Positions 641 through 61,460 of a stretch of DNA of 64,000 nucleotides are shown here, one piece after another. The first letter of the stretch is position 1. Each line of letters starts with the position of its first letter. The notes below the pieces were generated by a model. The model saw only the letters and a program-made list of their open reading frames with translations. It was not told the origin of the DNA and did no database searches. The DNA is from Heliocidaris erythrogramma (lineage: Eukaryota > Echinodermata > Echinoidea > Camarodonta > Echinometridae): the NCBI GenBank assembly GCA_025617745.1, contig CM046853.1, forward strand, positions 9,874,974 through 9,938,973. The letters run 5' to 3'. The position numbers and the translations under genes were made by a program.

Positions 641-3200
641 CACTGGCGGCAATCTCTACGTCATCCTTTTTGGGAGGGGAGGGGGGAGGTTCTTTATCCC
701 TCCTTCGAATCGCTGCCAGTGCCGGGGAGTACATTCGCATTGCGTGGCAATTCTCTAGTTGTTTATAACTAATAAGTTCAAACTTCAAAGTAATGAAAAA
801 AATTCTGAAAGGAGAACATTGATTGTATTTACATGAGAAAATGGAGTTGTCCGACCGAACAGATAACCCTGACCTATATTCCTGTTATAACTTTCAAATC
901 TAATTGTAGATTATTTTGTTCTCAGACGATCAAGATTCACTTACAGGGGAAAATCTTTACCAAGACAATGACTAACACTGTATATTTCCTTTGATTAAAC
1001 AGAAAACAAGGTATTGATTTTTTTCTTCCCGCGGGAAGAATTAAAGAAGGGGAGAGACGGGTACAAGGCTGCCGAAAATGTGAGAAGTATAGAGAGAGAG
1101 AGAGAGAGAGACGGGGGGGGGGGGGGGGTGTCTGAATGAATATGAAACATTTTTGTCATTTTACTGTATTATAGTGTCAAGAAGTGTACAGACGATTTTA
1201 AGAAGTAACATGTATGAACAACATGTATAATGAATTTTCCTTCGCTCTCCATTATATTTTTCAAACTGAGTATTGTTAAAATTTATTTTGAGTAATTACT
1301 TCTTGTTTTCTTATTCCACCCACTTTGATCTACACATATTTTGTATTCAAGTCGTTTTTGTTTGATACGCATCTTTTCGGGTATATGCTATACTAATTTT
1401 GCTAATTTCTGAAACCAATCAAAAGAGTTATGCTCTGCCTGACAGGTTTGTGCATGGTTGCAATAGCACAATGATTGATAACGTCGTTAGAATAATTAGT
1501 TTTATTACTTCCATGAACATTGTTATTCAGCAAGACCGGTATCTCGAATTATATACGGTTTTCATGAAAGAGCAGCAATAATCATAAGTTGGCTTAATAC
1601 ATGTAACGTCTAAATATGATATCAAAATGTATATGTATCAATATTACAAAATTTATATATCATTGTCGTCAAAGTAATTACCTGGGACCAAAGTAATTCA
1701 TGTCGGTAAGTGCTAACATTATTATAATTCACTATAGTCCATTTTGAATTTGGATGTTGGATCGAATTTGTCGTCAAGTTTGCCGAAAATACGTGACTCA
1801 AAAGGTTCTCATTTGTTTTTATTTTTGAAAAAAAACCCACAAAACAATCGAGATTCGCTAAAAACATATTCTCCTTAAGCGTCGTACATGTATTGTACAC
1901 TAAATACCAATGAAGAAGTCGGAAAGTGACGTGTTGGCTGCATGGTCTATGAATAGGATATTCACGTGTAATCATTCTTTCTTTGGTCATATTTCATTTA
2001 GGTGATCTGGGGAAATTTTTGTCCTCCTGTGTTACAAACATTTATGTCGTCAATTACCCATAAATCGAGCATGCCCCTTTTAAAAGAAACCTAATGAAGG
2101 GTTGGGATTAAGGTTGAAATTGGGGTTTTGATACATGTAGTTTAGGGTAAGGGTAAGGTATACTGTTTGGTCCAGGGTAGATGTTCATTCGGTTTGTACA
2201 GGATATTGACCTTGAACAATCTCCTGTATATCAGGCTAAATCTTTGTAAATCACATGCATCATGAGAAAGAGAAGTTTCATGCATCATTTATTATAGTTT
2301 AAACTTTTAAACATTATTTTTTGTCAATTTTCAAGCATTCTTTTAATACAAATTATGGATCATTCAGAAAATATCTCCCATTTCTATTTTAGTCTTGGGG
2401 AAGGTACTGTCAATTTACAGAAGATTCTTTGAATTCTGCGCATATATTATGCCTCAAGTTCTCAATTCTGAATCTCAATAACAGCTGGAACTGCTGTATG
2501 TCTAAAGATCCAACATGCGACTTATTTGCAACGTATGAGTTTGTTATTTCCTATCTGAAATTGATCAGGATCCTTGATAAGCATTGATCGTGTATGTTTA
2601 CCCTCTTCCTTCCTGGTTGACATCCGATCTGCATGGTATCCTGGAATATGATACTAGTAGCATATGGAATATACATGTAGAAAACATTGTTAAAGGGAAG
2701 GTTGGGAAAGGTAAACAATAATTTGTAAGCTTTCTAATTCTTTTTACGTTAGTTTAGAAGATTATCATAGTCGATATGTCCCCTGAAAAGGATTGCCCTT
2801 CAAATGCTCTACCATTCAAAATATGACAAGAAACAGCTGAAATGTTCGGGCCGAACATTTGTGTGTAGCCCCATATACACATTTCTGCGTGCAGTGCATG
2901 TGACTTTCAGCAGGATTGAGTCAATTCTAATCATTCTGGTGATTCCAAAACCTCACACCATACACCAATTCTTATTTACTACCTTTCTCAATTGCCTTGA
3001 GACAGTTTCTTTCACAATATCTCGTGACCAGAACTCAACGTGGGTGTATAATGCACATATTTTCAAATACACTGGGTAGTCTTTTCGATGGTATATTCGA
3101 TGTAACCTCATCGCTTTGGGTGATTGTTTTCACTTCAAATCGTTATCTTCATCACGTTCACACACTCATTAGGAGGAATGCAAACAAACAAGTGGACATA
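641..3200. other. intergenic, no gene recognised; (GA)n plus G-run at 1091-1128
   Basis: AT-rich sequence without an open frame that resembles a known family. The only structured part is a (AG)n tract at 1091-1111 directly followed by 16 G at 1113-1128. A 122-codon minus-strand frame at 1622-1990 has no recognisable motif and is best read as chance. Confidence 0.6.
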
Positions 3201-23042: not shown

Positions 23043-26000
23043 GTGAGTTCATATTATTTTGTTCCTTGAAATAACAAAATACAGTTTTCTTTGCTGTAAA
23101 TTGTTTGATTAGAGTATACACATCAGAGCTGGATAAGCTTAAAAATAAAAATTGGTTGCCCTATAGAAAGTTGGCCGACTTGTGATTACTCAAAGCTGTA
23201 GATAAAAATGCATGATTGTAATAAGAAAAAGTAATTTTCAGTAAAAATATTGATTTGATAAAACTGGAAATGAGCTCTTTGAAAAGAAGACCAGATTACT
23301 CATTAGTCATTTCGTTGAAGTGAAATAAGATACAAATTGTTCCTGTAGACATTGTTATGTCGATCAAGACGGATTCACGCTTCAGATGAGCAAGTGGGGT
23401 GATTAATTTGTCCTGACACTCTTTTAATGAAGTTTGGCCTGTCATGCAAGGGCGTGCTTCTCGGTCTTACTTGTCTTAAGTGATACTGATTAAACAAACT
23501 ATTTAAAGACATATTTCAAGGTCAAAGATCGTACATTATCCTGAAATTTGCTTGATTTAAGTGGCACATTTAGCAAAATATAGATTCATTTACAAAATGA
23601 GAATAAAATATTCATATCGTTAAAAGTACTATGTATTAATTCTAAAAAAAAATCTTTCCCCTTAATGAGATATATCATAATCATGTTGCATTTATAATGC
23701 CACCGCACACTACGATCTGCATGACTACGATCCGATTTTGGAAGCGTTGACAATTGTATTTGATTTGAACATCCACACAAGTCATGTAAAATATAAATGA
23801 TCGAGATCCTGAATAGTCATATGAATAATGAAAACAATTTGTTTGGGTGGCAAGCTTCCTCGTGGGAGGAAAAGCCCAAATCTGCTCCGAATCGTAGTGA
23901 CGTCAGCCCAGTCGTGCGATTGTTTACGATTCGAAGCCGATTTGGCGTTTATTCCAAACAGAAGGTTTACAATGCACTAAAATTTTGCTTGTAGTACAGT
24001 ATTCACATTATCATTCAGAATCTCAGTGAAGAAGATTGTGATTGTTCAATATAATATGTAATTGCGATTTATTCAAAATCGGTTAGCATGCAATCGGATC
24101 GTGCGGTGGCCTAGAGACTTCAGTTCTGGTAGCAAAGATCATGTACGGCTGTAACCACATCTCAAGATTTCATTTTAGATAGAAGTTACGAGATAATTCT
24201 GCCAATACTATTGTTATCCTTGTTAACTCACTGGACTTTTCTATCGTAATGACTTTTGAGGTTGAGTCCGTTCCAACCTTAATGCACCAAGCTCATTAGT
24301 GATTATGCTCTGCTCGTGGGAGATATAGATGCGAGCGCTTTTATCTTTCAGGTTTCGAGTATAGACTGCTAATGAGAAACATGTACCACACGATAGTCTG
24401 AATTAATATGCCCTTTTAAATGATATCAGCTTATAAGTAAAATGGCGAGTTGAGAGGAAAGGAGAAAACCGACAATCAGGAGAGAGAATATGCTTTTAGT
24501 GAACAAACTTATGAGCATCATTATGTCCGTGTGGTGCGATGATTGGATCGGACATGTAATTACCTGTTCAATATTAGGTTGGTTAAAGGGAAATGTAACC
24601 AAGGCCCCGTTTCATAAAACCTGTCGTCAATGACAAGTTGCAATAACTGTTATAAGCTACTGAAATCCTTGCATCTGATTGGCTGAGAGCAAATTTGTCT
24701 GTAAAAATCACCGACAAGACACTTGATGAAACGCCCCCAGATGTCCTCTAATGAAGGAAAAAAGCCTACCCAGTCACATGGTCAAAATAACTGTAAAACT
24801 ACAGGTTTCCTGGCCCTTTTTCCTGTAAAACAACAGCAAGTTTGTTGGTTTACCGGAAATCAGCATTTATTTTCAATCGCCCGATAAAAAACACCGTTAA
24901 AAAAACATTTTCTCATATTTTAACAAGTTACCCTGTTAAATTACCAAATATGTGGGAAAACACTTATATGAATATTCATGAATTTTTAGTAAGCGTATGG
25001 TTTGGGGTTGCCCGATTTAGTAACTGTCACAAAAGGAATAAAAAACTATAAGGTGCATATAAAAGATTGAATTAACTGGGCGTTGTGGCGTGCGCCTGTA
25101 ATCCAGCTACCAGTGGAAGTTATAAACTGATTCAGCGGACCCAGGTTCGAGACTGAGTCACGTCTTTCGGATGGTGACGTTAAAGGTCGGTCCCAGACGT
25201 AAATAATCATATCTGATTGATACACGTCTGTAAAAACCCAATACACACACACACACGCGTTGTGGCGTGCGCCTGTAATCCAGCTACCAGTGGAAGCTAT
25301 AAACTGATTCAGCGGACCCAGGTTCGAGACTGAGTCACGTCTTTCGGATGTTAAAGGTCGGTCCCAGACGTAAATAATCAATAATCTGTAAAAACCCAAT
25401 TACACACACACACACAATTAACTAGATTAGGATATGCTTAAGATAGGATAGATTAAGGTATATAGAGAATAGGATAACATAAAGCATGGCTATACACTAA
25501 TAACTGTAAAACTACGGACTTTCTGGCTTTCCTTGAGACTGACTACAAATTATTTTAAATTTACAGTCTCTTTCCTGTAAAAAAACGGAAATATTTTTTA
25601 CAGACTGTAGTTTTACATGAGGCTGTAAAATAACGTGCACTCCTGGCGTTTCGACTGCCAGGAAATTTCCTGTAAAAATACCCACATATTTTTTAACAGT
25701 GTACTCAGTCAAAACATGGTCAAAATAAATGAGAAAAGTATTGTTTCAGTAATTTCGTATTATATAGGCCTAGTGCTCCCACAGTGACATTCATTACCAT
25801 TTCATCAATTTGATATTCCACTAATTTTTATGATCTCAAATTTTGAACATTCATAGATTTCTCTTTGTAGTCTAATTTCGTTCAAACTTTCACCTTGTGT
25901 TGTGTTGACCAATTTGTTTCTCTTAATTTCTGCTTTTATTCAAAGCTATAATTTCTATGAAAAATTTATAGTTTATGCAACAGATACTATAGAGTAGCCT

Positions 26001-27787
26001 CTCTCTCTCTCTCACATTTATATCTTTTTGTCTATCTCTGTCTCCTCACTTCTATCTCGCTCTTTCACCTACTCAGATCGGATACATCCCGAAGGAGGTT
26101 CATCATTACATTCTGGTAACAAAGGTCGAGACCAAGAGACGGAATCATTACCGGTCCATGTAAGATAACCTTTCTTCATCTTTTGATGTCATCCTTTATT
26201 GCTCTGTGTTCACTATCACAGTGCTGCCATCCGACCGTTCTCAAATACTTCTGTTTCATGAACGTCTTAATGGCCAATACCTTAGTCTGTCTCCTAGTTA
26301 TTTTACAGGCAAAACAGAAGCCAATATCTGGACACTTCGGAGATGAAATATCCAATTGACACAATATTGACAAGGAGATTTGTAACTTTACGAAAGGGGC
26401 GGTGCATTATTTTCTGTTGAGTGATAACTGCTTCGTCATTTTATTTCCTTGTGTTAGATAATCAAGGTAAAGAGAATAAAATTAATGTTCACCACTATTC
26501 TGACATCAATCTTTGGCATTTTGGTAGAATCTGAAAGTAAAATCTTCAAATGGCCATGAACTGTGTATACTGACAGTACATGAAATATGTTTTTATTCAA
26601 GGGATCTTGTTTTTTATTATGGGCTGTCAATACCAAGAGTCGGGGTAGTGGTATAGGGACGTAGGCATTTTTTTTTTACAAGCGTTAGACCCCTACCTAA
26701 ATCTATAATTGGGGCAATATTATGATCATTATTATTGAGTGTAGATTTCTGGATTATTGCATTTTTAACCTATCGCACCTGTGTAATCAGTAGAAATATA
26801 ATATTTTTGGTGAAATTACAGGTCAATATTGGATCGTCAAAAGAAGATGACAACCCAGACTCTGTTGGTTTGCTCAACGGGTCGTACCCAAGCGAGGCAG
26901 CATTCATTCAGTCCCAGAAAGAGATTCAGAAACGTCGCAAGTACAACATAGAGCGTATCTGCAAGAAGTATCATCCGAATCCCGATGCGGACATGGCCAA
27001 GCATCCGCCATGGAACATCCTAGTAGATGATAAATATAAACTGATGTACTGCTACGTTCAGAAGGTTGCGTGTACCAATTGGAAGAAAGTGTTTTTAGTA
27101 TTGAGTGGTCAGTACAATTCTACCGAGAGCATTCCGCAGTTCTTTACAAATCGACAAGGGGCAAAGAGTCTTAAATCACTGCAGTCTTACACCGAACAAG
27201 AACGGAGGCACATCCTTAAGACTTACACAAAGTTCATGTTTGCGAGACACCCGTTTTCCCGCGTTCTTTCGGCATACCGAAACAAACTGGCGCCAGACAG
27301 TACCTTCTCTCGGGCGGGAAAATGGCAGAAAAAAATCGGCACCAAAATCATCAGCACATTCCGCGAAAACGCCGAGGAGCCACGTGTTGCTAGGCAAAAC
27401 TTCAACATGACTAATTATGATCTTTCTTTTGGTGAATTTGTGAAATTTATCTACACTCCTCGAGGACAAAAAAATGGCAACAAGCATTGGCGGGATTTAC
27501 ATATAAGCTGCCTTCCTTGCATGATACATTATGATGTTATTGGCAAGATTGAAACGATCGAAGATGATTCGCGCTATATCTTAAGTATCAGTGGGGCAGA
27601 TAAAGCAGTGAGTTTTCCATCGGCAGATGGCAGTTCACCAACGAACAGCTCTGATCCGTACCTTATACAAAAGTACTTCTCATCTCTACCACACAGTGAT
27701 ATCACAAAACTCTACAACCGATATTTAATTGATTTCTTGATGTTTGATTACCACGCGACTGTAGATGACGTACTTGATGTACGGTAG
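22919..27787 (+). CDS. carbohydrate sulfotransferase, CHST8-14/HNK-1ST-like (gene 1), 3 exons, 390 aa
   Basis: Predicted Golgi type II enzyme that moves sulfate from PAPS to a glycan. Exons join 22,919-23,042, 26,077-26,159 and 26,822-27,787; introns are phase 1 and phase 0 with GT-AG borders. A short cytoplasmic tail is followed by a signal anchor at residues 7-25, then a Ser/Gly-rich stem to about residue 95. The 5'-phosphosulfate loop is QKVACTNWK at 149-157; the family usually has Pro first, so the P-to-Q change is odd. The 3'-phosphate site is ARHPFSRVLSAYRNK at 210-224. A CLPC pair sits at 299-302, and YLIDFLMFDY closes the domain near 370-379. The exon-3 frame stays open 29 codons into the intron, so a naive ORF call would start at 26,735 and lack the anchor. 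Acceptor glycan is unknown: chondroitin, dermatan, GalNAc or HNK-1 types are all possible. Confidence 0.9.
23697..24113. mobile_element. ~417-bp inverted-repeat MITE in gene 1 intron 1
   Basis: Ends are 'atgccaccgcacactacgat' on the left and 'aatcggatcgtgcggtggcc' on the right, which pair as imperfect terminal repeats. Variants of 'gatccgatt' and 'cgattcg' recur inside in both orientations (for example at about 23,730, 23,890, 23,925 and 24,090). No open frame of note. Confidence 0.7.
24604..24739. mobile_element. hairpin MITE related to the 22,667 element
   Basis: Starts 'ggccccgtttcataaaacc' and ends 'cttgatgaaacgccccc'. It shares the core 'gcatctgattggctgagagc' (reverse complement of the core in the 22,667 copy). 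It lies in gene 1 intron 1. Confidence 0.75.
24785..24945. repeat. 'ctgtaaaa/ttttacag' word array
   Basis: Short self-complementary words 'ctgtaaaa', 'cctgtaaaac', 'accgttaaaa' and 'cctgttaaa' recur. Related to 25,497-25,698 and to 63,720-63,895. It lies in gene 1 intron 1. Confidence 0.5.
25070..25423 (+). mobile_element. tandem-dimer SINE with 7SL/Alu-like head and (AC)n tails
   Basis: Two head-to-tail monomers, 25,078-25,254 and 25,255-25,415. Each starts 'gcgttgtggcgtgcgcctgt', continues 'aatccagctacc', has a B-box-like 'ggttcgagact', then the tail 'cagacgtaaataatca', 'ctgtaaaaaccca' and (AC)n. The second monomer lacks a few bases ('gtgacg', part of the 'tatctgattgatacacg' block). The dimer is flanked by an 8-bp direct repeat 'aattaact' (25,070-25,077 and 25,416-25,423), consistent with one insertion event. 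From established 7SL/Alu sequence, the first ~36 nt and the 'cccaggttcgagac' block look alike. It lies in gene 1 intron 1. Tail-only copies occur at 48,132 and 48,601. Confidence 0.75.
25497..25698. mobile_element. 'ctgtaaaa' word-array MITE ending in 'aacagtgta'
   Basis: Left end 'aactgtaaaactacgg'; right end 'ttttttaacagtgtact'. Between them the words 'ctgtaaaa', 'tttacag' and 'ccaggaaatttcctg' recur on both strands. Similar 'gactgccaggaaatt' blocks occur at about 63,728. It lies in gene 1 intron 1. Confidence 0.6.
26077..26159 (+). other. gene 1 exon 2 (stem linker)
   Basis: 83 nt after a pyrimidine-rich tract and 'ctactcag'; donor 'cat/gtaaga'. It is the only reading that joins the phase-1 end of exon 1 to the phase-0 start of exon 3 without a stop. 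It encodes a hydrophilic Gly/Ser/Glu-rich linker, as expected for the Golgi stem. Found by splice and phase logic, not homology. Confidence 0.75.
26822..27787 (+). other. gene 1 exon 3 (catalytic domain)
   Basis: Acceptor 'gaaattacag' at 26,812-26,821; 321 codons plus TAG. It holds both PAPS-binding motifs and the whole conserved domain. Confidence 0.9.
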
Positions 27788-41033: not shown

Positions 41034-43745
41034 TCATGATGCCTGAATCTCGTGTGGTATATCGTATCCAAACAGCTCAAAATCAAGGCGATATCGCTGG
41101 TATAAATCCATGACTATATCATCAGGTACCTGAGCATAGTAAGGGATAATATGATTTGAACTATTTGTAGGGCTACTGCCATTTGATGACGGAAATTCCA
41201 CAACTTCAGAAAGATTGAGCGATTTCAGGATGAATTCAGCATCCGTACTCATTGTTTCAAACTTTCCAACGATGTCATAATTGATATCACATGGTGAACA
41301 CATCTTATGCATTTCCTTCCAGTGTTTATTGTCTTGGCCTTTTATATTTCCTCCTTCCCCAAGAAATTTAACAAAATCTGTAAAACTGAGGTCATATTCA
41401 TTCGTAGAATCGGGATGGAAGCGTTCAAAGATCCTTTTACCGAGTTTGTTCTGCCAGTGACTCGCTCTACTGAATGTTGTATCGGGGGCTAACTTGTTCA
41501 TGTATGCTGAGAGCACACGAGACATTGGGTGTCTGGCAAACATGATCTTGGTGTACCTGTTCAAAATACGTTTCCTCATCCGACGAGACTGGTGAAAGAA
41601 AAAGTCCAGATGTTTTTGTTCATGATGATTTATTTCAAACTGGTCAAATTCATCAGTGTTGCTAATGACTCCTTTAAGAACCAGGAAAATTTGTTTCCAA
41701 CTTGTGCAGGCCACCTTTGGCATGAAACAGAACATGAGTTTATGTTGGTGGTCAATGATGATGTTAAATGGTGGATTATCTATGACGTCACCCTCTGATG
41801 CAAAGTGGTTTCTTTTACAAACTTCTTTAATCCGGTTTCGACGCTCTTTTTGTAAAGCTTCTTGTGAATGGGTGAATTCACCTTTCTTGACCACCTGTGA
41901 AAGATTGAATTGAAGATATATAATTACGTATTTTAGTTAATGCTGCCGAACACAATGTTCATACTATGTCTAACTAGGAGTATCGCCTGACCAATTTGAA
42001 ATGGGGTGGGGGGATGTTGTCGAACATGTGCCGACAAGTTAGACTTTTTTTTTCATCAAGCAAAATATATATCTTTAATTACAGAAAAGTAATGATAAAC
42101 AAAGAAAGGTCCTTAGATTTTGAAATTTTCAGATAAACATTTTAAAACTTTTGATACCGTAACTCCATGTGGTAGCTTTCATGATTTAATCATTTCTTTG
42201 TTGGTATAAAGAACAAAGACTGGAAAATAAAAAGAGAATATCGGTTGTAAGTTGGCTGACAAGATGAATGTATAATATCAGCATCAAACCCTCACATGCA
42301 GACTATAATCATAATTATTGTTTTTTTAATGATGTAGTTTTCTGGAGAGCTTATACAAAAGCCCTCTTTAATTGGAGGATCGTTAATTGGAGAATCTTTG
42401 TAAATTTATTTGACTTTTGCAAGAAAGGATAATCTTAGGTGTATAAAATGTGCTTTTTAGCACTTTAAAGGTGAAATGTTTAGGGTGATCTGGTATAAAG
42501 TTTAAGCGTGGTAACACTTGTCGGGGCCATGGCTGTAATACTCAGTATGGTAGATAATCTATTAAATCCATAGAATACTTTTGATATATGTTCAATTTGT
42601 TATAGACACTCTAAATGCCTCCCATATGGATTTAGTCTCTAACAAAGTAATAGAAAAACAATTACCGATTGAAAGTCGGTGACATTTTGATATCCATATT
42701 CACTGCTTCGTAAAAAGGGCTTCTTGGAGGGAGCTGGAATTATAAATAAATCATATAATACAGATTAAAAATAGAAATATCACTTTACCCCAATATGGTT
42801 TATGTTGTTTTCCCAGCTGCACTTAAACATATCATGGTGATTAATCATTAACACTGATAGCGCTTGTGTATACGGGTTGCTTCTACTATAGCTTTAAACG
42901 TGGAAATAAATACACATGCATTGAAATATCCTTGTGCCGCAATCCATAACATATAGAATATTACTGCTTTCTCAATCATTTACTGGCATGTGTAGTTTTG
43001 AGGAAATTTTGCAATTAATAATGATTAACATCGAATAATAATAATAATAATAGTAATAATAATAATAATAATAATAATATGTCCATTTATATAGCGCAGC
43101 TACTATACAATATACTCTACTGCGCTTAATACAAAGTATCACATTATTACCCCGGCTTTAGCCGAGCTGCCATGATGGCGCTAAGGTATTCAAGGAATTT
43201 CTTTCTACCGGGTACCCATTTACTTCACCTGGGTGGAGAGTGGCAAATGTAGATGAATGTCTTGCCAAAGGACCTTAGCGCCGTGGCGGGATTCGAACCG
43301 CGAACCATGTGAGCCACAGTCCGGTGACGTATCCACTAGACCAAGACACCTCCAGAATAGTTCAGTAAACAAACCAGAAATTTTGTACAAGTTTCGCAGT
43401 CTCCAACAAGATATTTTCTCATGCGATGATTCGAAAAGCAGCCATGCAGGTTTAGTCGTTACATGTTTTAGTGGAGTTGGTGAAGATTTTGATCACTACT
43501 CTCTCAGTGGAGGATGCAGGGTTTTGAAATAGGGGCGGGGCATGAAAATCCTTCCACGTGTAGATATTATAAAGGAGGCGCGCGCCCTCAATTCGCACTT
43601 GTATGTTTGATGAAAACTTACCTTTTCCAGTTTCCTGAACCATTTTGGCAACCTGGTGGGATGACATCAAAGAATAAGAGGTAACCATGACAACTAGGAG
43701 TGCTGTCCCGATGAAAAGTAACTTCGGTTTATTGTGTTTTTGCAT
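41034..43745 (-). CDS. carbohydrate sulfotransferase, CHST8-14/HNK-1ST-like (gene 2), 3 exons, 350 aa
   Basis: Predicted Golgi PAPS-dependent glycan sulfotransferase. On the minus strand, exons are 43,745-43,622, 42,733-42,666 and 41,894-41,034; introns are phase 1 and phase 0 with GT-AG borders. A basic cytoplasmic tail (residues 1-8) is followed by a signal anchor at about 9-23 and a stem to about residue 75. The 5'-phosphosulfate loop is the canonical PKVACTSWK at 123-131. The 3'-phosphate site is ARHPMSRVLSAYMNK at 184-198. A CSPC pair sits at 263-266, and YRLDFELFGY is at 332-341 near the C terminus. All key PAPS-site residues are intact, so it looks functional. Exon 1 contributes 124 coding nt, exactly as in gene 1. 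Intron 1 carries a tRNA-headed SINE. The acceptor sugar cannot be told from sequence alone. Confidence 0.88.
42666..42733 (-). other. gene 2 exon 2 (stem linker)
   Basis: 68 nt, acceptor 'ataattccag', donor 'tcg/gtaatt'. It joins phase 1 to phase 0 with no stop and encodes 22-23 hydrophilic residues. Chosen because it is the only segment I found between exons 1 and 3 that fits both phases. The polypyrimidine tract is weak, so alternative exons remain possible. Confidence 0.6.
43035..43354 (-). mobile_element. tRNA-headed SINE in gene 2 intron 1
   Basis: Reads on the minus strand from 43,354. The head 'ggaggtgtcttggtctagtg' contains an A box (tggtctagtgg), and 'ggttcgaatcc' is a perfect B box. 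The body has 'cctttggcaagacattcatc' and 'gcgctatataaatggacata', and an (ATT)n tail lies at 43,035-43,080. It is SINE-like rather than a tRNA gene, because the anticodon arm and acceptor stem do not fold as a full tRNA and the tail is LINE-like. Confidence 0.8.
43622..43745 (-). other. gene 2 exon 1 (signal anchor)
   Basis: ATG at 43,745 in context 'ttccaccATG', 41 codons plus one base, donor 'gaaaag/gtaagt'. It encodes a lysine-rich tail followed by a 15-residue hydrophobic core. Confidence 0.8.
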
Positions 43746-47880: not shown

Positions 47881-48127
47881 TGCAGTTTGAAGACAAGTAA
47901 CCAGACAACCACCCCAGGACAGTTATCCCCCGGACAACTTCCCCCAGACGACTACCCACTAGGACAACCACTCCCAGGACAATTTTCCCCCGGACAACTA
48001 CCCCCCGGATTCTGGGATAGTTGTCGGGGGAATTTTGTTTCGGGGGGGGGGGGGGGGGGGTTATCGGGGTAATCGTCATTTATGGGAAGGGGGAATTCTT
48101 CCTCAGGGTAACTGTCCTAGGTGTTAG

Positions 48128-48210
48128 TTGTCTGGGGGTGTGTGTGTGTAATTGGGTTTTTACAGACGTGTATCAATCAGATATGATTATTTACGTCTGT
48201 ATATAATCAT
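48128..48210 (-). mobile_element. SINE tail fragment (first copy)
   Basis: Reverse complement of the 3' half of the 25,078 SINE monomer: (TG)n, 'aattgggtttttacagac', 'gtgtatcaatcagatatg', 'attatttacgtctg'. Head absent, so 5' truncated. Confidence 0.7.
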
Positions 48211-48596
48211 ATCTGATTGTTGTCCGGGGTTAGTTGTCCTAGAGGGCGGTTGTCCTAGGGGGTAGTTGTCTGGGGGTAGTTTTCCGGGGGTAGTTGTCCT
48301 AGAGGGTGGTTGCCCTAGGGGGTAGTTGTCTGGGGGTAGTTGTCCGGGGGTACTTGTCCTAGAGGGTGGTTGCCCTAGGGAGTAGTTAGCTTGGGGGTAA
48401 TCATCCTAGAGGGTAATTGTCCCGGGGGTAGTCGTCCCAGGACAATTTTCCCCCGGACAACTACCCCCCGGATTCTGGGATAGTTGTCGGGGGAATTTTG
48501 TTTCGGGGGGGGGGGGGGTTATCGGGGTAATCGTCATTTATGGGAAGGGGGAATTTTTCCTCGGGGTAACTGTCCTAGGTGTTAGTTGTCTGGGGG

Positions 48597-48678
48597 TGTG
48601 TGTGTGTAATTGGGTTTTTACAGACGTGTATCAATCAGATATGATTATTTACGTCTGTATATAATCATATCTGATTGT
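48597..48678 (-). mobile_element. SINE tail fragment (second copy, part of the tandem duplication)
   Basis: Same fragment with the same truncation points as at 48,128. It therefore arose by duplication of the surrounding 463 bp, not by a second insertion. Confidence 0.7.
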
Positions 48679-49071
48679 TGTCCGGGGTTAGTTGTCCTAG
48701 AGGGCGGTTGTCCTAGGGGGTAGTTGTCTGGGGGTAGTTTTCCGGGGGTAGTTGTCCTAGAGGGTGGTTGCCCTAGGGGGTAGTTGTCTGGGGTAGTTGT
48801 CCGGGGGTACTTGTCCTAGAGGGTGGTTGCCCTAGGGAGTAGTTAGCTTGGGGGTAATCATCCTAGAGGGTAATTGTCCCGGGGGTAGTCGTCCTAGAGG
48901 GCGATAGCCCTAGGGGGTAGTTGTCCTAGGCGCTAGTTGTTCTAGAGGGTGGTTGTATATCCCTATATACGAATTTGGTTGTTGCAACTTGAACAAGAAT
49001 TGTGTCGTTTAATATAGGATAGGTCCTGGTATATTTTGTTTTGCTTTGTTTTGTTGAATAAAATAAAGATG

Positions 49072-55586: not shown

Positions 55587-56507
55587 TTTTTTTTTTTTTA
55601 ATTTTATGTTTTATTACAAATCAAAAAGAAATTACAATATTCACAGATAACCAGATTGAATGATTAAAATTAAAAAAGACAAGATTACAAGTTATACAAA
55701 TGATCAAAAAAGGCAGCAGAATAAAGAGAATTATTTAAAATGAGGCCTGACACTGACCAAAACAAACAAACAAACAAACAAAAAACACACATTTATAAAG
55801 AGCATTCATTGGTTAAAACAAAAGACTTGAAAAAAACGGGCAAAGTGATGAGCAAAGGCATATGCGTCGAGGGTTGCGGAAGTAAATCAACATAAAAAAA
55901 AAATAAATAAAGGTGAGGGTGTATACTTGTGAGAAAGAGAGATATTGAACTACCTGATGCATATCATAGAAAATATGGAAAATCATAAATCAAAGCGCCA
56001 TTTCTTGAAATGAACAGGTAATTTGTTTCTTTTTTTGGCTAATAAGTATTCAGTTTCTCTCTGTCTCTTCACAAAGCATTTAAATGCAATAAAATTGGGA
56101 AGATTGTTATTGAACTTACAAGTATAAATATAGTATTTCAGAAGCAAAAATAAATATGTAAGAAACTTATCGCTGCAAATACCAAACAATTTCTCAAAAT
56201 TAGATACATTGATAGAATTTTCACATTTCTGAGAGATTACATCCAAAACATCTTGCCAGATTGGAGCGACCTTATCACATTCGCAAAATAAATGCACCAT
56301 TGTCTCACATTTTGTTTCACACAGAGAGCAGTTTGGTGAATCTCTTCTTTTAATCTTATAGAGAAAATCATTTAGGGCAATAGCCTTATGAAATATCTTA
56401 AAATAAAAGGATCTCAATTTCGTATCAACAGTACAAAAAAAGTTAGAAATGTGTATTTTTTCCCAGTTCAAAGTAACAGGTACAGGTAAACGATCACACC
56501 AATAAGT
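55587..56507 (-). mobile_element. L1/Tx1-like non-LTR retrotransposon 3' end
   Basis: A minus-strand frame ends at 55,983. It carries the reverse-transcriptase C-terminal zinc-binding region: 'FHKAIALNDFLYKIKRR' then 'CSLCETKCETMVHLFCECD', giving the Cys-x2-Cys...His-x3-Cys pattern of zf-RVT. The frame is intact from the junction at about 56,507 to its stop, so it is fairly young. About 390 bp of 3'UTR ends in a poly(A) tail (T-run at about 55,587-55,599 on +). It abuts the truncated DIRS element, suggesting a 5'-truncated insertion into it or a later deletion. Confidence 0.75.
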
Positions 56508-56514
56508 TTTCCTT

Positions 56515-57205
56515 GACTGAGGAGAAGTCTGGCAGAGGGCTGAGAAACACCTCAACCGGTCCGGAGGAAGCCGTCTGATTTTTGGCTACAAAGGAAGGCT
56601 TGGGAATAAGACGAAAACCTCTTTCCCAACGGATGCGACCGGGAGAGGTGCAGAGAGCATGAAGAGAACTTCTTCTCTGCCCTGAAGCTATAGCCATAAG
56701 AAAAATGGTCTTGACAGTTACCTGATGGAGAGAAGTCTTGCTCATCGGTTCAAAGGGAGGCTTTGATAACGCATCCAAAACTTTAGGAAGACTCCAAGCA
56801 GGAGACAGCTTTGGATTTGCTGGTCGTTGTAAGATTATTAGAAGAACGATCTCAGCAATCTAGCAAGGAGAAACTCCCGAGCCGTCTGGAAAGCCAACGT
56901 GAGTGGCAGCGATGGCAGATCGATATCCACGGATCAAAAAGGGAGATCAGAAAGTCTGCAGTCGTGCTTACAGAAGCCTCACGGGGAGAAACCCCGAGAT
57001 CTTCGCACCAAAGTGAAAAGGCCTCCAGACGGGAGTTGTAAAGAAATCTCGTGGAATCTCTACGACTCTGAACTATAAATTGAGAGGCTCTCTCTGAGAG
57101 ACCCGAGGCCCTATAGCGTCTCCCCCGATAACGGCCAGGCGGTCAAGTGAAGGGTCTCGGGCCGACCATGGAGGAGCCCCGAAAGAGGCTGAGACACCAG
57201 GTCTG
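56515..57205 (-). pseudogene. DIRS tyrosine recombinase (broken, C-terminally truncated)
   Basis: Pieces in several frames: 'GYRSAIAATHVGF' (core-binding domain), 'VLDALSKPPFEPM', and 'KTIFLMAIASGQRRSSLHAL', where the Arg-containing catalytic helix starts, then 'KPSFVAKNQTASSGPVEVF'. The later His-x-x-Arg and Tyr motifs are absent because the element is cut at about 56,508. Stops occur upstream of the intact 56,494-56,778 frame. Confidence 0.75.
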
Positions 57206-60434: not shown

Positions 60435-61460
60435 TCATAAAAGAATCTCTGGCTTTCCATACCCGAATAACTCAAAGTCTAGTCTGTATTTTTGGTATAG
60501 TTTTTCTAAGTCACTACGAGGAATATTGGCAAAGTAGGAGTCGTAGATAGACTTAGAAGAGCTGTTAGTGGGACTACTCCCTTTTGATGACGGAAACTCA
60601 ACGACGTGATCAGCATGTACAAGACGAAGAATATAGAGAGCGTCATCGACAAGGGTCTCGAAGTGGCTGATGATGTCGTAATCGATCTGACATGGTCGGC
60701 ATATTGGATCGATTTCTCTCCAATGGTTATTTTTAAGGAAGGATTCCGGCTCTGATTTATTCGTCAGGAATTTTACAAATTCATCAAATCGGAGATCATA
60801 GTTGACTTTCCGTTTGTCTTTTGTGAGTACTGTTTTACGCTCAACGCTCCCACTCTTGTTATTCAGGATCGTATTAGGCCTGTACTCTTTTAAGATATGC
60901 AAGCCAATCTTTCTCTGGAACGATCCTGAGCTAGGTGATGTTGAGCCTGCCCACAGTTTATTCTGATAGGCAGATAATACACGTTGAAATGGATGCCGAA
61001 CCACCAGAAACTTGGTGTAGCTTTCCAAGATTTTAGCTCTCTGACTGTTGTTATACGACTTGAGGAAGCTGAGCGTACGAGGTCCGATTTTATTATTGAC
61101 CACAGATTGTTTGAGATCGTCGGTGTGGTTCATGATACCTTTTAGAACAAGAAAGACACGCTTCCAGCTGGTACAAGCTACCTTCGGCACATAACAATAA
61201 ACGAGTTTGTGTTTCTCATCAACAATCATATTACTTACTACACTGACTCTCGAGTCATTGTAAACATTGTTTTTAAAGCAGCCATCTTTTAATTGTCTTC
61301 GACGACGTAGCTGAACGTCGGCCTGGATGTCCATGAATTTCTCATCATCCTTCATGGTCAAAGATGTCGGTGCCATGGCTGGGTTCGCTCTCACTGTCTG
61401 ACTGAAGGATGCTTTAGCCTTTGATTGGGGTTGCCTCCACGCCTGAGATGTAGAGGTCAT
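60435..61460 (-). CDS. carbohydrate sulfotransferase, CHST8-14/HNK-1ST-like (gene 3), catalytic exon, 341 aa
   Basis: Third paralogue; PAPS-dependent glycan sulfotransferase domain. The 5'-phosphosulfate loop is the canonical PKVACTSWK at 92-100. The 3'-phosphate site is VRHPFQRVLSAYQNK at 154-168. CRPC is at 254-257 and YRLDFELFGY at 325-334. It has an extra ~20-residue basic insert before 'YDLRFDEFVKF' compared with genes 1 and 2. The frame opens right after 'acaaatcgcag', so 61,460 is most likely a phase-0 splice acceptor, matching exon 3 of the paralogues, and the ATG there may be internal. No hydrophobic anchor is visible in this exon. The 5' exons should lie beyond 61,460, but I could not find them before the window end. 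A LINE sits in that presumed intron. The exon itself is intact. Confidence 0.85.
   Translation of the reverse strand: MTSTSQAWRQPQSKAKASFSQTVRANPAMAPTSLTMKDDEKFMDIQADVQLRRRRQLKDGCFKNNVYNDSRVSVVSNMIVDEKHKLVYCYVPKVACTSWKRVFLVLKGIMNHTDDLKQSVVNNKIGPRTLSFLKSYNNSQRAKILESYTKFLVVRHPFQRVLSAYQNKLWAGSTSPSSGSFQRKIGLHILKEYRPNTILNNKSGSVERKTVLTKDKRKVNYDLRFDEFVKFLTNKSEPESFLKNNHWREIDPICRPCQIDYDIISHFETLVDDALYILRLVHADHVVEFPSSKGSSPTNSSSKSIYDSYFANIPRSDLEKLYQKYRLDFELFGYGKPEILL

Follow-up and report, generated by a model that had tools for sequence, protein, structure and literature searches.

According to excerpts of two papers, the hagfish family was the first evident SINE1 outside Euarchontoglires (PMC7245038), and as of 2024 SINE1 was known only from primates, rodents, and hagfishes (PMC10886601). 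The excerpted text of the former describes primate Alu and rodent B1 as elements that are moved by L1 via poly(A) and consist solely of 7SL sequence. SINE1-1_EBu, from the hagfish Eptatretus burgeri (Kojima 2020, PMC7245038), appears in the same excerpts as a chimera of 96 nt from the 5′ part and 44 nt resembling the 3′ part of 7SL, with RTE-derived parts and AAC repeats, present in 2,363 full-length copies. The SINE pair described here belongs to a new 7SL-headed (SINE1) lineage in an echinoderm. No report of a 7SL-headed SINE from an invertebrate was recognised among the titles and abstract starts of the open-access literature (subscription papers and Repbase lay outside this scope), and no literature mention of SINE oligonucleotides was found.

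Results and discussion

Structure of the SINE pair

The pair lies in a window of 64,000 nt, the whole stretch of DNA analysed, and is made up of the following features.

25075-25415, + strand: SINE pair, two head-to-tail units with (AC)n tails and AATTAACT on both sides
25075-25256, + strand: unit 1, within the SINE pair
25257-25415, + strand: unit 2, without the first 5 nt, with internal deletions and an (AC)n end
25070-25077, + strand: 5′ copy of the flanking duplication AATTAACT, its final 3 nt being compatible with the start of the SINE as well
25416-25423, + strand: 3′ copy of the flanking duplication AATTAACT
25075-25110, + strand: unit 1, 7SL block, 36 nt that coincide with nt 1-36 of the 7SL RNA genes of the host
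25111-25120, + strand: unit 1, CAGTGGAAGT, counterpart of host 7SL TTGGAAGT with a 2-nt insertion
25144-25154, + strand: unit 1, B-box-like GGTTCGAGACT, not detectably 7SL
25194-25230, + strand: unit 1, 3′ tail hairpin CAGACGT...ACGTCTG
25243-25256, + strand: unit 1, terminal (AC)n
25321-25331, + strand: unit 2, B-box-like GGTTCGAGACT

The two units bear out the preliminary description of this locus as a dimer with (AC)n-ended tails. Within each, the order is ACTGGGCGTTGTGGCGTGCGCCTGTAATCCAGCTAC, CAGTGGAAGT, a body with GGTTCGAGACT, the tail hairpin, and (AC)n. The units are 87.6% identical over 178 aligned columns; unit 2 differs from a reference copy by one substitution and four gaps, and unit 1 by no substitution and one gap. 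A flush 8-nt match such as that of AATTAACT was seen in 0 of 5000 shuffled flank pairs. Because the SINE starts with ACTGGGCG, the bases ACT are common to the upstream copy and the element, and the duplication is unambiguous at 5-8 nt. The 8-bp duplication described earlier is thus present on both sides, with the qualification that not all 8 nt are unambiguous. No family reached its Rfam gathering score within the window.

The head derives from host 7SL RNA

The host assembly (1,064,227,859 bases, or 1.06 Gb, in 26 contigs) was searched with the Metazoa_SRP model, giving 23 matches, 18 of them above the cut-off (248-278 bits) and five weak; two of the five weak matches were read, and both are SINE copies. 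The count of at least 18 7SL loci is a lower bound, as 26 of 11,405 first-look candidates were scored. Twelve are on contig C16, five on C4, and one on C1. The 12 on C16 form a cluster at 41.25-41.72 Mb (L012-L020, L023, L024, and L027), many of them about 2 kb apart, and a copy of the SINE family lies near the 7SL locus in L019.

Nucleotides 1-36 of the SINE are identical to the 7SL locus L012, and are followed by a 2-nt insertion and seven matching bases. The exact 36-nt head, which comprises the A box and the 5′ domain of the Alu fold, is present in 10 of the 18 host loci. The alignment score of the head to host 7SL was 76, as compared to a maximum of 27 in 2000 dinucleotide shuffles. When the pair was analysed with cmscan (E up to 10), Metazoa_SRP was the top match at 34.3 bits (E 2.5e-7), below the curated gathering cut-off of 70, with unit 2 scoring 14.3 bits. 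Of the other two matches, mir-1268 falls on the head as well (26.5 bits, E 0.009), and the second is a snoRNA (E 6.3).

It is highly improbable that the head instead came from a tRNA or 5S gene and came to resemble 7SL by convergence, through the pol III boxes A and B. In favour of this, GGTTCGAGACT at the B box agrees with the tRNA-type consensus, and two of three copies of a sister family (see below) carry the tRNA-like GGGTTCGAGCCCC, which is what such an origin would lead one to expect. Against it stands the identity of 36 of 36 nt with host 7SL genes, which includes the stretch TGTAATCCAGCTAC outside the A box. A head closer to a tRNA or 5S gene than to 7SL had been named earlier as a refuting outcome; in the pair, cmscan (E up to 10) matched neither tRNA nor 5S, and ARAGORN found no tRNA in the window. 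The 5′ end is accordingly neither tRNA-derived, as in SINE2 (cmscan E up to 10, ARAGORN), nor 5S-derived, as in SINE3 (cmscan E up to 10), and the proposed 7SL origin of the head holds.

Recognisable 7SL sequence extends over about 45 nt altogether, of which nt 1-36 are exact. The remaining 134 nt of the unit align to host 7SL no better than shuffles do (1769 of 2000 as good), and the B-box block fares likewise (1409 of 2000). The stretch with the B box is aligned by cmscan to the 3′ end of the Metazoa_SRP model, but sequence similarity there does not exceed that of shuffles. Since no 3′ strand of the Alu domain of 7SL can be recognised by sequence in the SINE, a complete Alu domain is not claimed. 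The central S domain is absent, and a non-7SL body joins after about nt 45. An Alu-like B-box region, 'cccaggttcgagac', had been pointed out earlier; it is not demonstrably 7SL, lying beyond nt 45 where the sister family is tRNA-like. The tRNA-type B box and the GGGTTCGAGCCCC of the sister family suggest that the part after nt 45 may well be tRNA-derived.

In the predicted fold of the head alone, the H3 hairpin of host 7SL and one resembling its H4 are followed by a non-7SL hairpin in place of H5, and the fold of the long SINE RNA is barely above shuffles (z -1.24, 24 of 200 as good). The first 36 nt, in the domain of the presumed SRP9/14 site, are preserved by identity. As to transcription, carriage of the upstream 7SL promoter into SINE loci was considered and rejected, as the flanks of the 7SL genes differ.

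A young and mobile family

A 71-nt pattern spanning head to body, with up to three mismatches, was found at 3,124 places in the genome (1490 + 1634), while the reversed control gave 0. Copies are dispersed over both strands and several chromosomes. A non-random sample of 70 loci, taken in chromosome order (50 on C1 and 20 on C2), was read; as all match the pattern with 0 mismatches, the sample favours young copies. Two of these loci, L051 and L052, overlap, and L035 is the window copy. The sample yields 73 clusters and 66 distinct junctions, clusters directly after another SINE tail being excluded, and the SINE start was set with substitution-only anchors in the cluster, duplication, and TATA counts cited here. 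Among the 66 distinct junctions, 62 clusters are single, three double, and one triple; under another rule (n = 64), 58 are single, four double, and two consist of five units. The window dimer is real and represents one event, but the dimer is not the usual form of this SINE, as the label "dimeric SINE" had implied.

Target duplications, where found, are 5-15 nt long. Flush duplications of at least 7 nt flank 17 of the 58 clusters with a readable 3′ flank, as compared to 0.4% of mismatched pairs, leaving 41 of 58 without one by this strict rule; at 5 nt or more the count is 22 of 58 versus 4.9%. The exact 35-nt head piece was found 0 times in IMG/VR contigs and 0 times in GTDB contigs.

The element thus has many dispersed copies and target duplications of variable length, as SINEs in general do, together with the 7SL-derived 5′ head and missing S domain of SINE1. 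An origin of the copies as retrocopies (pseudogenes) of 7SL RNA, with no SINE family behind them, has next to no probability. Their 5′ end does equal 7SL from the first base, and putative 7SL retrocopies are described from marsupials and guinea pig in excerpts of PMC7245038, but the 3,124 places match a pattern that crosses the 7SL/body junction, the sampled copies run on into the same non-7SL body, and the S domain is absent. This is a young, mobile, 7SL-headed SINE family in an invertebrate, an echinoderm. The mobility anticipated in the preliminary description is confirmed by the dispersed places, other dimers included, and the window pair is no unique local duplication.

Host and other contents of the window

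The host is an echinoderm, probably an echinoid or a holothuroid, an assignment that rests on its mitochondrial code and gene order. COX1 has its sole match on contig C24, which is 12,905 bases long, with 11 in-frame TGA codons; ATA fits isoleucine, and three of four AAA codons fall at usual animal asparagine positions. Conserved COX1 motifs underlie the reading of AAA as asparagine. By reading and three ARAGORN tRNAs, the order is the end of ND2, about 1.4 kb in which 16S rRNA would lie, COX1, tRNA-Arg, ND4L, COX2, ATP6, COX3, tRNA-Ser (minus strand), ND3, ND4, tRNA-His, and ND5. Excerpts of PMC7396427 describe the cox1-to-nad5 block as conserved in echinoderm classes and nad2-16S-cox1 as alike in sea cucumber and sea urchin.

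The window also contains three Sulfotransfer_2 reading frames (26735-27787, 41034-41894, and 60435-61460; E below 1e-47), a local sulfotransferase cluster, and a LINE remnant with a zf-RVT domain (55983-56555).

Search for a LINE partner and a sister family

A search for a LINE sharing the SINE 3′ tail had been suggested. In three exclusion-pattern searches of the genome, no such LINE was found in the places read; those places comprised variants of the SINE itself, a sister family, the junction of a transposon, and truncated tails that had been duplicated. The first gave 393 + 393 places, and most of the 100 listed look like SINE variants with an extra-C shift, a few carrying GGTCCACACAGACG, which led to the sister family. 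The second gave 22 places, comprising variants and singletons. Among the 109 places of the third, TACGCCACTG occurs in at least 24 and ATATTAATT in at least six among the 100 matches listed. In L123, the sole TACGCCACTG place read, this sequence is the end of another transposon within a SINE-like tail: a transposon with CAGGGGCGTATCCAGG-type ends lies inside such a tail at L123:3734-4002. As the 3′ junction recurs in at least 24 of the matches listed, a composite of the L123 type, itself the only one read, seems to have multiplied. L127, the sole ATATTAATT place read, holds a 5′-truncated SINE tail with no LINE recognised in the 450 nt upstream. There, at L127:450-520, ATATTAATT stands upstream of the truncated tail as if carried by a host repeat. 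A search for an alternative head on the same SINE body gave 74 places, with no clearly recurrent other head at the boundary.

The sister family was read at three places of the GGTCCACACAGACG variant, L124 (789-975), L125, and L126, the last two compared without their 5′ ends. Its head has 7SL nt 2-24 exact in L124 and a diverged H4 region, and the family scores weakly against Metazoa_SRP (14.8 bits, E 0.054). The tRNA-like GGGTTCGAGCCCC occupies the B box in the two copies already mentioned. Body and tail hairpin are as in the main SINE, with an ATTC-type end replacing (AC)n, which suggests a 7SL/tRNA chimera with a later change of the 3′ end.

Tail-only copies

Two tail-only pieces lie elsewhere in the window.

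48138-48199, − strand: 5′-truncated tail-only copy, with a short inverted stretch of that tail before it (by reading)
48596-48657, − strand: the truncated insertion again, copied by local duplication

They are 98.4% identical over 62 columns, and the direct duplication around them spans at least 449 columns, 441 of which are identical. Because both sit inside this duplication, they represent one 5′-truncated insertion. The tail-only copies reported before are real and 5′ truncated, but the two are one event, later duplicated. A G-rich minisatellite with units of 14-16 bp surrounds the duplicated tail (47904-48956).

Proposed origin and mode of movement

The element is very probably a non-autonomous, LINE-dependent SINE of an echinoderm, with a 5′ end taken from host 7SL RNA, to which were added a body carrying a tRNA-like B box and a tail of hairpin and (AC)n. 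Judging from its boxes, identified by sequence only, it would be transcribed by pol III from a 7SL-type A box and a tRNA-type B box. The 5′ end of the RNA would fold as the 5′ domain of the 7SL Alu region and could bind SRP9/14, and by analogy with Alu the RNA might then sit on ribosomes beside nascent LINE protein. The reverse transcriptase of the LINE would recognise the tail, and the copy would be inserted by target-primed reverse transcription, which is indirectly supported by the variable target duplications, the 3′ repeat tail, and the 5′ truncation. The spacers between units suggest that dimers and arrays may form from copies landing again at the same site or from joined templates.

Dimers, arrays, and the carrier repeat

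The SINE pair sits within another repeat.

24784-25706, + strand: carrier repeat hosting the SINE pair, about 0.58 kb without the SINE

It holds GTAAAACTACAG at 24793 and the reverse complement at 25605. Pieces of this carrier, 82-97% identical and with mostly similar borders, surround the SINE at 13 other places among 100 SINE loci compared, several with the same junction GAATTA/ACT. Flanks related to the carrier were also noted in L006, L056, L057, L084, and L093. Such recurrence could mean that the window dimer spread chiefly as a passenger of the carrier and not by its own retroposition, yet this is unlikely. By reading, the place of the SINE within the carrier varies slightly between copies, with several positions seen; dropping targets that have a 12-mer in common with an earlier target still leaves 57 of 66 distinct junctions; and the first dimers were sampled with a query that included 15 nt of flank on each side, favouring the carrier of the window copy.

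Heads no more than 14 nt after ACACAC, as at tandem junctions, number 93 on the reverse strand genome-wide; the forward-strand count of 338 for the same pattern is inflated because starts overlap. In place of repeated insertion or template joining, tandem duplication or unequal crossing over might have produced the dimers and arrays, a real possibility that falls somewhat short of probable. The array in L034 is perfectly regular, with four identical 181-bp units, and the notion that the 5′ unit is the youngest in arrays was unsupported (17 versus 9, 3 ties, p 0.17; means of 3.4 versus 3.2 changes). This age-polarity test used 29 of 35 arrays, six with a SINE fragment directly upstream being excluded and a few overlapping (L059/L077). 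By reading, however, array spacers often repeat the local flank (GTGTAT in L003, ATTA in L036, GTATACA in L064, and CTTA in L074), as repeated insertion at one site predicts, and the spacer in L009 resembles another locus (AATTAACTAGATAG) inside one outer duplication, as template joining predicts. The regular tandem arrays of L034 (181 bp spacing) and L101 (186 bp) look as if a satellite were arising from the SINE.

Insertion downstream of TATA boxes

Two TATA motifs precede the window copy.

25047-25063, + strand: two motifs of the carrier, TATAAG (25047) at 28 nt and TATAAA (25058) at 17 nt upstream of where the SINE starts

Downstream of TATA boxes there is an enrichment of SINE insertions that share the orientation of the box, and the window copy is one of them. 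Genome-wide, TATAA lies 19-39 nt upstream of the exact head in 305 + 244 cases and 85-105 nt upstream, the one control distance used, in 58 + 53. Forward counts of gapped patterns may count a head several times, and the reverse-strand counts of one per head (244 versus 53) are preferred; both also contain copies that lie in repeated carriers and so are not independent. The mirror motif TTATA gave 112 + 104 at the near distance, with about 60 among the 100 matches listed reading TTATAA and thus being TATAA too. In the sample, TATAAA/G occurs 16-45 nt upstream in 16 of 66 clusters, as compared to 2 of 66 at 66-95 nt (Fisher p 0.0006), and after removal of targets sharing a 12-mer in 13 of 57 versus 2 of 57 (p 0.004).

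Tentatively, and with rather more doubt than confidence, we propose that insertion is directed by promoters: the SINE would enter tens of nucleotides 3′ of TATA boxes, in the direction of transcription and near the start site, and repeat hits would build arrays with a local duplication between units. If so, the SINE machinery would read a melted or TBP-bound promoter as its target, and the SINE would gain an upstream promoter. If this link to TATA boxes is confirmed, it would represent a form of targeting that is new for SINEs.

Comparison with known systems

A further capture of 7SL, in an echinoderm and with the 5′ domain alone recognisable, tests which part of 7SL SINEs need, and it argues that the 5′ domain, with the A box and the presumed SRP9/14 site, is the part repeatedly captured. 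As in primate Alu and rodent B1, the head corresponds to the 5′ part of 7SL, beginning at the first base and including the A box, the S domain is absent, and both single units and dimers occur. Unlike those wholly 7SL-derived elements, the echinoderm SINE has only about 45 nt of 7SL, an unrecognisable 3′ strand of the Alu domain, a tail of hairpin and (AC)n, and an echinoderm host. It resembles SINE1-1_EBu, as far as the excerpts of PMC7245038 describe it, in being a young 7SL-headed chimera outside Euarchontoglires with a microsatellite 3′ end, and both families number thousands. It differs from the hagfish element in its shorter 7SL part, tRNA-like B box, and (AC)n, in that no LINE was found, and in target duplications of 5-15 nt as compared to about 17 in SINE1-1_EBu (same excerpts). 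With tRNA-derived SINEs (SINE2) it shares the type of B box and the organisation of body and tail, whereas its 5′ end is 7SL. Finally, in inserting at a set spacing from an element of a promoter, the family recalls Ty3, Dictyostelium TRE5, and NLTR-A, which target pol III genes according to excerpts of PMC5911963; unlike these, the echinoderm element is a SINE, and the TATA box that serves as its mark stands at many different sites.
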